Positions 6,354 to 32,927 of a stretch of DNA of 39,028 nucleotides are shown here, one piece after another. The position numbers and the translations under genes were made by a program. Numbering within the stretch: position 1 is the stretch's first letter; every line of letters starts with the position of its first letter. The notes below the pieces were generated by a model that made no database searches, had not been told where the DNA came from, and saw only the letters and a program-made list of their open reading frames with translations. Origin of the DNA: Nitrosomonadales bacterium (lineage in GTDB: Bacteria; Pseudomonadota; Gammaproteobacteria; Burkholderiales; Gallionellaceae); assembly GCA_023259015.1 (NCBI GenBank), contig JAHFRC010000010.1, positions 3,096 through 42,123 on the forward strand, given 5' to 3'.

Positions 6354-6755
6354 CTATTTTTGAGCATTGAGTTTCGCATCAATTTCCGCTTCGGCAGTTA
6401 TCCAGTCCTTCATCGCGTAACAGCTGTTAAATCCATGCCGTTCGGCCAGAAAATAGGCGGCGGTGGCGATCATATGGTAACGTTCTTCCGGTGAGACGGT
6501 AATCTTTCTCGCCATTTTTTTTGGTTGACCTTTTGCGATTACGGCGATTTTTCCAGCTAATGGAGCGCTTACTTTTTTTGCCGGGGCTGCCGTTGTCTTC
6601 TTGGCTGGGGTTGGCGACGCTTTTTTGGCGATGGTTTGGGGTTTTGTTGCAGGTTTTACTGCAATCGTTTTTTTGGCGAGCGGCTTTTTATCCTTGGTGT
6701 TGCTTGCGGTCTTGGAGGTGGTTTTTTTGCCAACTGGGGTGCGTGATGTAGCCAT
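6354..6755 (-). CDS. DUF2934 protein with a Lys/Ala-rich histone H1-like N-terminal tail
   Basis: The first ~85 of 133 residues are low-complexity Lys/Ala/Pro/Thr with AKK and TPAKK repeats resembling histone H1 tails. The C-terminus (SPEERYHMIATAAYFLAERHGF ... DWITAEAEIDAKL) matches the short DUF2934 domain. A strong AGGAGG sits just upstream of the ATG, so the gene is well translated if transcribed. It is 40 bp downstream of glgB and 87 bp upstream of pgi. The function of DUF2934 is unknown; the basic tail suggests nucleic-acid or polyanion binding, which is an inference from composition only. Confidence 0.8.
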   Translation of the reverse strand: MATSRTPVGKKTTSKTASNTKDKKPLAKKTIAVKPATKPQTIAKKASPTPAKKTTAAPAKKVSAPLAGKIAVIAKGQPKKMARKITVSPEERYHMIATAAYFLAERHGFNSCYAMKDWITAEAEIDAKLNAQK

Positions 6756-6795: not shown

Positions 6796-8982
6796 TTATG
6801 CCTGGGCCAGCATGATGCAAGCCAGCGGCGGCACTTCTATTGCGGCGGAATAGGGTTGTCCCATCCAGGGCAATTGCTCGGCGGTAATTTTACCCGCGTT
6901 ACCGAGGTTGCTGCCGCCATAATAATGCGAATCGCTGTTGAATATTTCCCGATATTCACAATCCAACGGTAGCCCGATACGGTAATGCTGGCGCGGCACC
7001 GGGGTGAAATTCAAGACGGCAACAATGGTCTTGCCATTATGACCGAAGCGCAAGAAGGAAAGTAGCGAGAGGTCGGTGTCATTGCAGTCTATCCAGGAAA
7101 AACCAGCAGGCTCGAAATCCTGTTCGTACAGCGCCGGCAGGTTGCGGTACAGGTGATTCAGGTCGCGTAACATACTCTGTATACCGCGATGGGGGTCAAG
7201 CCCGAGTTGCCACCATTCCAGTTCCCGGCCAGCATGCCATTCCAAACCTTGGCCGAATTCGTTGCCCATGAAGTTGAGTTTCTTGCCCGGGCTGGCGATC
7301 TGGTAAGCTAGCAGCAGGCGCAGGTTGGCAAATTGCTGCCAGGCATCGCCGGGCATCTTGTCGAGCAGGGAGCCTTTGCCATGCACCACCTCGTCATGCG
7401 AGAACGGCAGCATAAAGTTTTCGCTGTAGGCGTAAAGCTGGCTGAAGGTAAGCTGGTTGAGGTGGTAACGGCGATGTATCGGATCGTGCCGCATGAAGCT
7501 GAGTGTGTCATTCATCCAACCCATATTCCATTTCATGGAAAAACCCAGGCCGCCGAGATAGGTCGGGCGCGATACTGCGGGCCATGCCGTGGATTCCTCG
7601 GCCAATGTCAGCGCGCCGGGAAATGCGTCGTGCACCATGATATTCATCTCGCGGAGGAAATCGATGGCTTCCAGGTTTTCACGTCCGCCGTATTTATTAG
7701 GCAGCCATTCGTCTTGCTTGCGCGAATAGTCGAGGTACAGCATGGATGCCACCGCATCCACGCGCAGCCCATCGAAATGGAATTGAGACAGCCAGTAATG
7801 TGCACTCGACAGGAGGAAACTTTTTACCTCGTTGCGGCCATAGTTGAAGATGTGTGTACCCCAGTCCTGATGAAAGCCCAGACGCGGGTCTTCGTGCTCG
7901 TATAGCGCAGTGCCGTCATAGCGCGCCAGGGCGAATGAATCCTGCGGGAAGTGCGCGGGCACCCAGTCCAGCAAAACACCGATCCCTGCCTGATGGCAAC
8001 TGTCCACAAAATGGCACAGATCATCAGGAGAGCCGAAACGGCTGGTCGCGGCAAAATAGCCAGTCGTTTGATAGCCCCAGGATTCATCCAGCGGGTGCTC
8101 GGAAACAGGCATCAGTTCTATATGGGTGTAGCCCATATCCTTGACGTAGGGGATCAGGTGTTCAGCCAATTCGCGGTAAGTATAAAAATTGCCGTTTGGA
8201 TGGCGTTTCCACGAACCGGCATGGATTTCATAGACATTGAGCGGGGCATGCAGCCAATTCCATTTACTGCGCTGCGTTAACCATTCCACATCCTTCCATA
8301 TGTGCGTGATTTCCACCCCGGCGCGAGCGGCGGTTCCGGGGCGCAATTCGTATGCGTTGGCATAGGGATCGGTCTTGGTTAGCAGCTTGCCTGATGTATT
8401 GAATATCTCAAACTTGTATAACGCACCTTGCTCAATGCCCGGAATAAACAGTTCCCACACGCCGCTGGAGCCATGCACCGCCATCGGGTGGATGCGTCCA
8501 TCCCAACGGTTGAATTCACCCACTACACTGACGCGCTCGGCATTCGGCGCCCAGACGGCAAAACGCACACCGGGAATGCCATCAATTTGCACGGCATGCG
8601 AACCGAGTATGCGATAACCCTGATGCAGGCTGCCTTCGTTAAACAGGTGCAGGTCGAAGCTGGAAATTTGCGGTGCGAAGGTGTAATGGTCGTGCACCAA
8701 ACGTTGTACGCCATTTTCCGTGAAGCGAAGCCGGTAGGGGTGAGTGGGTTTATCAGGGCCATGCCACTCAAACAAACCTTCGGAGTGGACACATTTCAGC
8801 GGTTCACTACCCGGCATGGTTTCAAGCCAGGCTTCGCTTGCATGAGGGTTGAATACCCGAACCACGTACCCCTCTTTTTCCTGGTGCAGGCCGAGATAGG
8901 CGAAGGGATCATGCAGGCGGCCTTGCAGAAGCAATTCGGCGCGTGGATCGGTATTTATGCGAGGATGTTTTTTCATGATCAC
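6796..8982 (-). CDS. glgB: 1,4-alpha-glucan branching enzyme
   Basis: Introduces alpha-1,6 branches into glycogen. Seen here: an N-terminal GlgB domain and CBM48 (GSHAVQIDGIPGVRFAVWAPNA near 128-148), then a GH13 catalytic barrel with region I DWVPAHFPQD, region II FDGLRVDAVASM (nucleophile Asp409), region III LTLAEESTAWP (acid/base Glu462) and region IV LPFSHDEVVHGKGS (Asp530). The length is 728, as in E. coli. The 8982 start is a GTG; an ATG two codons later (8976) is equally plausible, and neither has a clear Shine-Dalgarno. A TATAAT lies on this strand at 8994-8989, too close to the start to be sure of as a -10 box. The gene is divergent from glgC across ~80 bp, suggesting shared control. 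Confidence 0.97.
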   Translation of the reverse strand: MIMKKHPRINTDPRAELLLQGRLHDPFAYLGLHQEKEGYVVRVFNPHASEAWLETMPGSEPLKCVHSEGLFEWHGPDKPTHPYRLRFTENGVQRLVHDHYTFAPQISSFDLHLFNEGSLHQGYRILGSHAVQIDGIPGVRFAVWAPNAERVSVVGEFNRWDGRIHPMAVHGSSGVWELFIPGIEQGALYKFEIFNTSGKLLTKTDPYANAYELRPGTAARAGVEITHIWKDVEWLTQRSKWNWLHAPLNVYEIHAGSWKRHPNGNFYTYRELAEHLIPYVKDMGYTHIELMPVSEHPLDESWGYQTTGYFAATSRFGSPDDLCHFVDSCHQAGIGVLLDWVPAHFPQDSFALARYDGTALYEHEDPRLGFHQDWGTHIFNYGRNEVKSFLLSSAHYWLSQFHFDGLRVDAVASMLYLDYSRKQDEWLPNKYGGRENLEAIDFLREMNIMVHDAFPGALTLAEESTAWPAVSRPTYLGGLGFSMKWNMGWMNDTLSFMRHDPIHRRYHLNQLTFSQLYAYSENFMLPFSHDEVVHGKGSLLDKMPGDAWQQFANLRLLLAYQIASPGKKLNFMGNEFGQGLEWHAGRELEWWQLGLDPHRGIQSMLRDLNHLYRNLPALYEQDFEPAGFSWIDCNDTDLSLLSFLRFGHNGKTIVAVLNFTPVPRQHYRIGLPLDCEYREIFNSDSHYYGGSNLGNAGKITAEQLPWMGQPYSAAIEVPPLACIMLAQA

Positions 8983-30898: not shown

Positions 30899-31537
30899 AT
30901 GGCAGCACTCGATTCGCAGGAACAAGAGCAGGTAGATGCATTCAAGGCATGGTGGAAAAAAAACGGTAATTTTTTGCTGCTGATACTGGCGGTGATTTTT
31001 GGCGGTTATGCCGCGATGCATGGCTGGCAATCCCATAAGGCCAATCAGGCGATGGAAGCTGCCACAATGTTTGCCGAATTGGAAAAGCAGGTTGACAGCA
31101 GGGATCCCAAGCGCGTCAATGATGCGGCGGCGGCGGTGTTAGACAAATACGGATCGAGCGCCTATGCGCCGCGTGCTTCACTGCTGGCGGCGCAGGTTAA
31201 CATCATGTCCAAAGACGCGGCACGCGCCAAGACGCAACTGCAGTGGGTGATCGAGCATGCCGGCGAGGAAGGTTTGAAGAATGTGGCCCGCCTCAATTTG
31301 GCCAGCGTGTTGCTGGATGAAAAAAACTATGCCGATGCGCTGGAATTGCTTAACGCTCCCCATCCCGATTCCTTTGCCGGTTTGTATGCCGACCTCAAGG
31401 GTGATGTGCTGAGCGCGCAAGGCAAGGCCGAAGAAGCGCGCGCCGCTTACCAGCAGGGATTGGACAAGACTGACGCCAAAAGCCCATACCATAACCTGAT
31501 CCAGATGAAGCTGGATGCGTACGGAGGTAAAAAATGA
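30899..31537 (+). CDS. yfgM: YfgM-family TPR inner-membrane protein
   Basis: YfgM is an ancillary partner of SecYEG and periplasmic chaperones in E. coli. Seen: a cytoplasmic N-terminus (LDSQEQEQVDAFKAWWKKNG), one membrane segment (FLLLILAVIFGGYAAMHGW, residues ~23-42), then a periplasmic TPR-like domain ending EEARAAYQQGLDKTD. At 212 residues it is standard. Its stop overlaps the bamB start (ATGA), preserving the hisS-yfgM-bamB-der order. Confidence 0.92.
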   Translation: MAALDSQEQEQVDAFKAWWKKNGNFLLLILAVIFGGYAAMHGWQSHKANQAMEAATMFAELEKQVDSRDPKRVNDAAAAVLDKYGSSAYAPRASLLAAQVNIMSKDAARAKTQLQWVIEHAGEEGLKNVARLNLASVLLDEKNYADALELLNAPHPDSFAGLYADLKGDVLSAQGKAEEARAAYQQGLDKTDAKSPYHNLIQMKLDAYGGKK

Positions 31538-32829
31538 CGTTCAGCCGCGTAGCACCCGCAAGAGGCACACCAAAGGCAGGCAATCCGCATCCAGCCAGCG
31601 GCTGGGCGGAATTGACACCGCCGATGGGCGCCCGGCAGCCTGCCCCCGTAAAGGGGACGCCGCCAGACACTCGCCCTGCGGGCGGCCTTGGCGCAGGCTG
31701 CCACTCTTTCGCAGCCGCATTGCTTCTGCCGTTGTTGCTCGCGGGCTGCTCCATGTTTGGCAGCAGCAAAACCGGCAATGAGCCGGCCAGCCTGACAGAG
31801 TTCAAGGAGCAAGCCAGGTTTGATATCCGTTGGCGCCATGACATAGGTGATGCGGGCGGCAACATGCTGCAACCGGCAGTAACGAATGATGCAGTGTATG
31901 CTGCAAACGCCAAGGGTGAAGTGTTCCGCCTGGAGCGCGCAACCGGCAAAGAGATATGGCGGGCAGACAGCGGCTTTACTGTTTCCGGCGGGGTAGGGGC
32001 AGGCGGTGGCTTGGTGTTGGCAGGCGGAATGAAGGGTGACTTGGCAGCCTTTGGAGAAGACGGCAAGTTGCGCTGGAAAACCAGGGTGTCAAGTGAAGTA
32101 TTGAGCGCGCCGCAGGTGGCCGATGGCATTGTGGTGGTGCGCACAGGAGATGGCCGCATTGCCGGGCTGAGCGTGGTGGATGGCAAGCGCCAGTGGTTGT
32201 ATGAGCGCGCCACCCCGGCGCTGATTGTGCGCAGCCACGCAGGCGTGACTTTGGGGCGCGGCATGGTATATGCCGGTTTGGCCGGCGGGAAACTGGCGGC
32301 CATTGGCCTGACCAATGGCATCGTCGTGTGGGAGTCGGTGGTATCTCAACCGCGCGGCAACACGGAACTGGAGCGTATCAGCGATATAACCAGCCTGCCG
32401 GTGGTGGATGGCGAGCAGATTTGTGCGGTGGCCTTTCAGGGACGCGTGGCCTGCTTTGATATTGCACAAGGCAATCTGCTTTGGAGCCGTGACCTATCCA
32501 GCGACAAGGGCATGTTGATACAGGGCAAATATCTTTACGTGACTGATGCCAGCGGCATCGTATCCGCACTGGACAAGAGCAGCGGCAGCTCGCTATGGAA
32601 AAATGACAAGATGACCATGCGCCATGTTTCGACGCCTTATGTGCTCGGCAACCATGTGGTGGTAGGCGATTATGAAGGTTACCTGCATGCATTGAACCGC
32701 GATGATGGGAGCATGGCAGCGCGCCTTAAGACCGATGGCGGCGGCATCATGGCTGCGCCAGTAGAACTGGACGGCGGATTGCTGGTGCAAACGCGCAATG
32801 GCGGCTTGTATTTGGTCGCGATCCACTGA
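31534..32829 (+). CDS. bamB: Outer-membrane assembly lipoprotein BamB with an N-terminal insertion
   Basis: BamB is a beta-propeller lipoprotein that supports BamA in inserting outer-membrane proteins. PQQ-like propeller blades are clear (FRLERATGKEIWRAD, YAGLAGGKLAAIGLTNGIVVWE, VSALDKSSGSSLWKND, YLHALNRDDGSMAAR). The lipoprotein signal AALLLPLLLAGC is normal but begins only at residue ~60. The first ~58 codons encode a Pro/Gly/Ala-rich stretch (PARGTPKAGNPHPASGWAEL and on) unlike any BamB N-region, made of hairpin-forming DNA (31549-31711). Translation from ATG 31534 would give a very long n-region; an in-frame ATG at 31624 shortens it to ~28 residues. Which is used, and whether export is affected, is unclear. 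Confidence 0.9.
   Translation: MTFSRVAPARGTPKAGNPHPASGWAELTPPMGARQPAPVKGTPPDTRPAGGLGAGCHSFAAALLLPLLLAGCSMFGSSKTGNEPASLTEFKEQARFDIRWRHDIGDAGGNMLQPAVTNDAVYAANAKGEVFRLERATGKEIWRADSGFTVSGGVGAGGGLVLAGGMKGDLAAFGEDGKLRWKTRVSSEVLSAPQVADGIVVVRTGDGRIAGLSVVDGKRQWLYERATPALIVRSHAGVTLGRGMVYAGLAGGKLAAIGLTNGIVVWESVVSQPRGNTELERISDITSLPVVDGEQICAVAFQGRVACFDIAQGNLLWSRDLSSDKGMLIQGKYLYVTDASGIVSALDKSSGSSLWKNDKMTMRHVSTPYVLGNHVVVGDYEGYLHALNRDDGSMAARLKTDGGGIMAAPVELDGGLLVQTRNGGLYLVAIH
31549..31711 (+). repeat. Hairpin-rich palindromic insertion in the bamB 5' region
   Basis: The segment contains GGCAGCCTGC (31634-31643) pairing perfectly with GCAGGCTGCC (31693-31702). Within that stem lie two more hairpins: CCCC/GGGG (31644-31656) and GCCGCC/GGCGGC (31659-31686), giving a three-way junction shape. 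A further CCAGCC/GGCTGG hairpin is at 31591-31605. The translated product has no family similarity, and the flanking yfgM overlap and bamB signal sequence are normal. Boundaries are approximate. Confidence 0.6.
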
Positions 32830-32927
32830 TGGGGATTGATGATCGGTGGGCGACGAGGAGGGAGTAAAAACCTCGTGTGGCTTTGCCCTCAATCCTTGAT
32901 CCTCAATCCTTTAGTTGAAAGCCTGAA

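Follow-up and report, generated by a model that had tools for sequence, protein, structure and literature searches.

How does a gene for an outer-membrane assembly lipoprotein come to carry about 160 bp of hairpin-forming sequence between its start codon and the core of its signal peptide? This question is raised by bamB in a Nitrosomonadales bacterium of the family Gallionellaceae, akin to the iron oxidisers of fresh water, located in a stretch of 39,028 nucleotides that was analysed as a whole (the window). An earlier note on this DNA had read the segment as a palindromic insertion that resembles the elements found in coding genes of Rickettsia, and had suggested that its folded structure could control translation. 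The original papers on Rickettsia palindromic elements (RPEs) are reportedly those of Ogata and colleagues. Protein-coding palindromes have been described as a Rickettsia peculiarity, to judge from a title cited in PMC10969869; REPs inside genes of other bacteria are described in passages of PMC3733652. Following up the note by computational analysis, we arrive at a reading that we hold to be highly probable: the bamB segment is composite, built from small mobile repeats, non-autonomous and able to form hairpins, which entered in frame after the lineage split from the compared congeners, and it is best taken as tolerated selfish DNA, not a regulator.

Results

A gained segment in bamB

The features around the start of bamB are the following.

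30899..31537, + strand: yfgM, coding for a TPR_21 protein; its stop overlaps the bamB start as ATGA
31523..31527, + strand: GGAGG, ribosome-binding-like, 5' of the bamB ATG; conserved in three congeners
31534..32829, + strand: bamB (PQQ_2/BamB), 431 amino acids, with the in-frame insert
about 31549..31710, + strand: in-frame insert of 162 bp (54 codons); empty site in G001, G002 and G003; edges uncertain by a few bases
31711..31749, + strand: native signal-peptide core AAALLLPLLLAG with the lipobox Cys72 codon (31747-31749)

The earlier note was right about the positions and the ATGA overlap of yfgM and bamB, and the segment is, as it had said, open in frame 5' of the BamB signal core; it places 54 extra codons after MTFSR and before the hydrophobic core of the lipoprotein signal. 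Comparison of bamB starts in relatives gave three congeners with an empty site: the genes of G001, G002 and G003 start with MTFSRTA, ATGACATTCAGCCGCACGGC, and then directly the signal core, leaving an alignment gap of 162 nt. Among 30 bamB loci, 16 have a lipobox motif, the window's own included, and by reading none of the 15 others contains such a stretch; the remaining 14 are uninformative on the insert, because the lipobox motif search gave nothing there. Since the congener genes are empty, we can exclude that the segment is an ancient orthologous N-terminus. The insert is known from the assembly alone, and this genome is a 73%-complete draft.

A search for other copies revealed that the pieces of the insert are dispersed repeats in its own genome and in relatives. 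They match two other places in the own genome strongly (C90 and C84), and there are 30 matches at E ≤ 0.01 in four of four genomes of the genus, counting the own genome and the insert itself. The opposite outcome, a stretch present in all bamB orthologues and without copies elsewhere, failed on both counts.

A 7-bp direct repeat, CAGCCGC (31542-31548 and 31712-31718), was considered as a target duplication and not counted, because by reading its right copy lies on codons that are also present in the empty relatives (ACGGCT vs GCAGCC). Two further irregularities were seen nearby. The 3' end of yfgM in G001, just 5' of bamB (L011, about 370-390), has a short extra stretch that occurs in neither the window nor G002 nor G003. 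The gap between bamB and der (32830-32925) contains short CTCAATCC-like repeats, and CTCAGTCCT repeats lie at about the equivalent place in G007 (L014).

The insert is made of nested repeats

The hairpins described in the earlier note, a perfect 10-bp outer stem with two inner stems and one more hairpin upstream, are all present. The outer stem (31634-31643 with 31693-31702) surrounds CCCCGTAAAGGGG and the 31662-31692 hairpin, and the further hairpin upstream is a repeat that we call unit b. Read by hand, the layout is that of a repeat, alpha, whose first arm contains b and whose second hairpin encloses two others, a2 and d.

31552..31567, + strand: alpha repeat, 5' part (degenerate ACCCGCAAGGGGTAC hairpin)
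31568..31618, + strand: unit b, 51-nt hairpin CACC...GACAC, reading PKAGNPHPASGWAELT; nhmmer E 1.2e-16, R1 E 1.4e-17, covariation
31619..31640, + strand: alpha repeat, 3' part up to the second hairpin, from comparison with other alpha copies
31634..31643, + strand: outer stem (perfect, 10 bp), left arm, pairing with 31693-31702
31643..31661, + strand: inner hairpin a2, CCCCCGTAAAGGGGACGCC
31662..31692, + strand: inner hairpin d, GCCAGACACTCGCCCTGCGGGCGGCCTTGGC; relatives in the alr, queA, pilD and DUF3108 genes of the genus
31693..31702, + strand: right arm of the outer stem
31703..31712, + strand: alpha tail ACTCTTTCGC; usual form ACCCTTCCGC

The alpha repeat of the window was assigned by hand, and its tail carries two changes; the nhmmer profile finds a single copy of unit b in the window. 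The idea of one palindromic insertion thus holds as far as the segment was inserted, but the insert is composite, with unit b (51 bp) and a second unit (a2 plus d) inside a third repeat.

Other copies of alpha display the same nesting. Alpha without b and d measures 56 nt in nine of the ten listed copies (110 nt in the tenth), and alpha with b alone measures 107 nt in all six copies, a difference of 51 nt. Unit b lies between GGGGTA and CGCC, with no target duplication evident at these sites, and one locus (L179) has both alpha forms. The alr locus (L003) contains alpha with d and without b; L053 has one alpha copy with both, in another layout.

Unit b is a 51-nt hairpin kept by compensatory changes

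Copies of unit b read CACC (or TAAC, CAAC)...AGGCAAT-stem-loop-stem-GAATTGACAC. An nhmmer profile built from 21 of 25 copies (leaving out one chance match and three near-duplicates) detected 153 distinct copies among 179 loci at E ≤ 0.1. The length is 51 nt, or 17 codons, in 133 of the 138 copies whose end could be read; three others measure 54 nt, one 53 and one 50. Across 113 distinct rows 96.8% of the stem cells are paired, compared with 25-38% in slid registers. Stem cells changed on both sides number 156 against 45 in shuffles, with none of 500 shuffles reaching the observed value, a count that is somewhat favoured because most loci come from a pattern that already requires purine/pyrimidine complements at part of the stem. 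The hairpin of unit b is kept by compensatory changes. Four of its six reading frames are usually open (142, 132, 124 and 117 of 145 copies), and the other two are open in 31 and 6.

In-frame copies in other genes

One filled and empty pair is thrC. The gene of G003 is 51 bp longer than those of G002, G004, G005, G007 and G008; its junctions read GAAG[CACC...GACAC]CGGGC, compared with GAAGCGGGC in G002, the edge being ambiguous by one C, and no target duplication is evident in this pair. Unit b was gained as 51 bp both at thrC and inside alpha, with no evident target-site duplication. The queA gene of G003 is 135 bp longer than in G000, G001, G002, G007 and G008 through an insert of alpha and d parts with a weak b. 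All three inserts that have an empty site (bamB 162 bp, thrC 51 bp, queA 135 bp) are multiples of three. In two nuoL loci, b occupies a His-rich loop, a part of the protein that differs from one relative to another; the NuoL of L077, a Gallionellaceae record, is 91-93% identical to that of six family genomes over about the first two thirds. In the own genome, alr carries alpha and d parts at a site whose bordering residues are adjacent in PDB 2odo.

Of 49 candidate ORFs, 40 were given to family searches and 37 of these found a family match; L105, L120 and the L115 plus frame did not. By family profile, the hosts include the M16 peptidase, the prepilin peptidase (pilD), threonine synthase, CobQ-type, Wzy-type, TPR/Cds6 and YbbP-like proteins, HrpA (two sites), AddA, PriA, LeuRS, YoaA, GlnE, RecJ, MnmC, PrlC, LivF, GspL, DnaG, ThpR and the family-4 UDG; mutL of the own genome was recognised as a host by sequence reading. 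In mnmC and cobQ, unit b lies between the two domains of each protein. These positions, like those in nuoL and alr, are ones where an insertion is likely to be tolerated.

Reading frames were counted over 27 rows from 24 genes, namely 25 of the 40 searched ORFs plus bamB and mutL. The other 15 comprise the three frames without a family match, four loci whose clear parts are alpha or d and not a full b (L003, L042, L046, L057), two further copies of the ybbP family (L143, L088) and six in which the unit lies outside the matched part (L072, L156, L081, L089, L149, L136). Unit b is situated within or between matched protein parts in 22 of the 27 rows (mutL by reading) and at a protein end in five (bamB, M16 peptidase, leuS, livF, UDG), where translation is less sure. 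By peptide, 16 rows read PKxGN...AELT, three xKVRQS...GIDT, six a GGVNSA-like reverse frame and two a VSxPP-like reverse frame. Such in-frame copies are uninformative on insertion rates, since selection removes out-of-frame insertions.

Genes of replication or repair are frequent among the in-frame hosts: mutL, recJ, priA, dnaG, addA, yoaA and UDG (L209, L071, L170, L140, L099, L112, L178, L135). Replication and repair hosts are likewise reported for intragenic REPs elsewhere in the portion of PMC3733652 consulted here. In L079, two neighbouring ABC-transporter genes each have unit b directly after the start codon and in the same frame (6527-6585 and 7342-7400); the second gene matches LivF and the first is LivG-like by reading.

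Consequences for BamB and its translation

Translation from the ATGA start would place the lipobox cysteine at residue 72, and the insert lies wholly before it. Signal peptidase II removes the signal peptide of lipoproteins. The 54 extra residues would lengthen the n-region of this signal, and mature BamB would be unchanged because the insert would be discarded with it; BamB is probably unharmed. Three features lead us to infer translation of the insert: the start is conserved, it overlaps yfgM as ATGA, and no good start follows later. The ATG at 31624 is in frame but lies inside the insert without a clear GGAGG, and the TTG at 31720 would leave almost no n-region. N-terminal REPs in other species are often thought to be untranslated, according to passages of PMC3733652.

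We can now return to the suggestion that the hairpins, lying in the 5' coding region of bamB, work in cis as an RNA or translational control element and tune its expression, perhaps with the true start downstream. Location at the 5' end of bamB, a covarying hairpin and a strong fold of the segment itself all fit this proposal: the 163 nt fold at -80 kcal/mol compared with -67.9 (sd 4.2) for shuffles (z -2.89), and one of 200 shuffles is as low. The fold in context is nevertheless unexceptional. Over 271 nt the z value is -1.55, 14 of 200 shuffles are as low, and the GGAGG/AUG region folds into a small local hairpin of native bases that is not paired to the insert. Moreover, a scan of 31300-32000 against Rfam returned no match at E ≤ 1, three congeners lack the element, and the same units occur in intergenic DNA and, within unrelated genes, in the middle as well as at the ends. 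Control of translation by the insert is possible but unsupported, and we regard it as very unlikely to be what the segment is for. Over 10 nt, the end of yfgM (31510-31519) is also perfectly complementary to part of unit b (31586-31595); this pairing is unused in the predicted fold and perhaps due to chance.

How unit b may move

The preference of unit b for particular sites was examined through the pairing of its flanks. Over 132 copies, the mean pairing score is 9.73 compared with 8.18 (sd 0.20) for re-paired flanks (0 of 200 reach it). With strict flanks (136 copies) the values are 9.46 and 7.71 (sd 0.21; 0 of 500), and with similar flanks collapsed (52 copies) 9.08 and 7.63 (sd 0.34; 0 of 500). 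Strong pairing is found in a minority, with a score of at least 14 in eight of the 52 copies against 1.8 expected. With flanks that match each other better than re-paired ones, unit b tends to sit in foldable sites, as a tendency and not a rule. In L160, L097, L102 and L129, b is found inside a GTAGGGGCACGGCG...CGCCGTGCCCCTAC-like palindrome that is GTAG-like and may be a separate REP family.

We favour a single-strand or hairpin route, in which b would be copied as a single-stranded hairpin into sites able to fold into hairpins. Foldable target sites could account for repeats nesting in repeats, as in the window, where b and a2 plus d both lie inside alpha. With a length divisible by three and four of its six frames usually open, b would often leave the reading frame of a gene intact on insertion, and selection would spare the insertions in loops, linkers, termini and signal peptides.

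Several properties recall GTAG/CGTC-type REPs or REPINs mobilised by a RAYT (Y1_Tnp) transposase, including the hairpin form, the copy number, the intragenic copies, DNA-repair hosts like those named in passages of PMC3733652, and the occurrence of some b copies within GTAG-like outer palindromes of the GTAGGGGCACGGCG[b]CGCCGTGCCCCTAC type. The defining tags argue otherwise: of 103 copies, 36 have GTAG at the same position and two have CGTC at any position. Y1_Tnp matches are present in 26 of the 33 genomes with b, but across 80 genomes the two are unrelated (26 with both, 7 with b only, 38 with Y1_Tnp only, 9 with neither; Fisher p 1.0, Spearman -0.05). Three b-rich genomes, G084 (35 copies), G002 (22) and G007 (15), have no Y1_Tnp match, and six Y1_Tnp loci of the genus (RAYT and IS200-type, 2.0-3.4 kb each) contain no match to b at E ≤ 0.1. 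The Y1_Tnp-based searches found no mobilising enzyme for b, and an origin from RAYT-driven REPs appears unlikely to us.

An ordinary MITE of a DDE transposase would also be small, non-autonomous and dispersed, and the own genome has a transposase-like gene with b at its 3' end in two copies. The lack of an evident target-site duplication at thrC and in alpha argues against a DDE transposase, and the ends of unit b (CACC or TAAC; TGACAC) are not inverted repeats of each other. This explanation is the least probable of those considered, at a level we would call very low. The gene in question (L207:1-1059 and L208:1696-2157, G000 contig 39) is IS1182-like by reading; its 3' part occurs twice, 98.9% identical over 610 bp, and both copies end in the unit-b peptide ALKVGNPLSGKPDVELSPQ. 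The insertion sequence may carry b as a passenger.

Taking up the favoured hairpin route again, we tentatively propose, at somewhat under even probability, that b, at 17 codons, represents a minimal mobile hairpin with no transposase of a recognised type beside it. It would insert without duplication into hairpin-capable sequences, including other repeats, which would give nested composites. Through its length and open frames, essential proteins across an order of free-living bacteria would receive short peptides that are rich in proline and glycine and probably unstructured.

Taxonomic spread

Of 80 genomes from the window's family, 33 contain unit b by a covariance model at E ≤ 1e-4, and the other 47 have no copy at this threshold. 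The own genome has 10 copies, and the highest numbers are those of G093 (52), G016 (43) and G084 (35). In a class-wide sample, one of 274 genomes contains b, namely the own genome; both searches used stricter filters, by which weak matches are lost. A pattern scan of genome contigs from 84,980 species gave at least 112 stretches. Among the 80 matches listed, 73 are labelled Gallionella, Gallionellaceae, Gallionellales, Sideroxyarcus, Thiobacillus, Sulfuriferula, Nitrosomonadales or Hydrogenophilales, and the other seven Proteobacteria (two), Gammaproteobacteria (four) and Flavobacteriales (one); no Rickettsia record is among these 80. Gallionellaceae and Thiobacillus are both members of Nitrosomonadales.

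Discussion

The likeness to RPEs drawn by the earlier note is real at the level of behaviour, in that the repeats are dispersed, lie in frame in other genes and have empty orthologues. RPEs, as described in parts of PMC10969869 and PMC3733652, are dispersed repeats that form hairpins and occupy unrelated genes in frame, apparently tolerated by the proteins. Unit b shares the palindromic hairpin, the dispersed copies in one genome and the in-frame insertion with empty orthologues (bamB, thrC, queA, nuoL). It differs in its host group (Betaproteobacteria/Nitrosomonadales), its 51-bp module, its nesting in other repeats and the empty and filled sites that give its ends. By analogy, b-type elements appear to work like RPEs, yet form a separate, nested family.

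Two other systems invite comparison. GTAG/CGTC REPs, in the part of PMC3733652 seen here, are palindromic, multi-copy and partly intragenic with replication and repair hosts, whereas most copies of b lack the defining tag, the unit is 51 bp long and no RAYT link was found. Enterobacterial RU and ERIC miniature inverted-repeat elements are also short, non-autonomous repeats able to make in-frame fusions (PMC10969869, PMC2759123), but in b no target duplication is evident and terminal inverted repeats are lacking. Literature searches at title and abstract level returned no paper describing the unit-b family, and the main text of PMC3733652 makes no mention of Gallionella, Sideroxydans or Thiobacillus.

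What emerges is a family defined by sequence in Gallionellaceae and relatives. Its empty and filled sites form clean pairs, its ends are defined, its length divides by three, and it is found in genes as well as in other repeats. For annotation, this means that alignments of BamB, ThrC, NuoL and QueA from some of these genomes include inserted repeat peptides. For the biology of the family, two questions become testable: by what route these palindromes move, and whether functional proteins gain new peptide segments from them.
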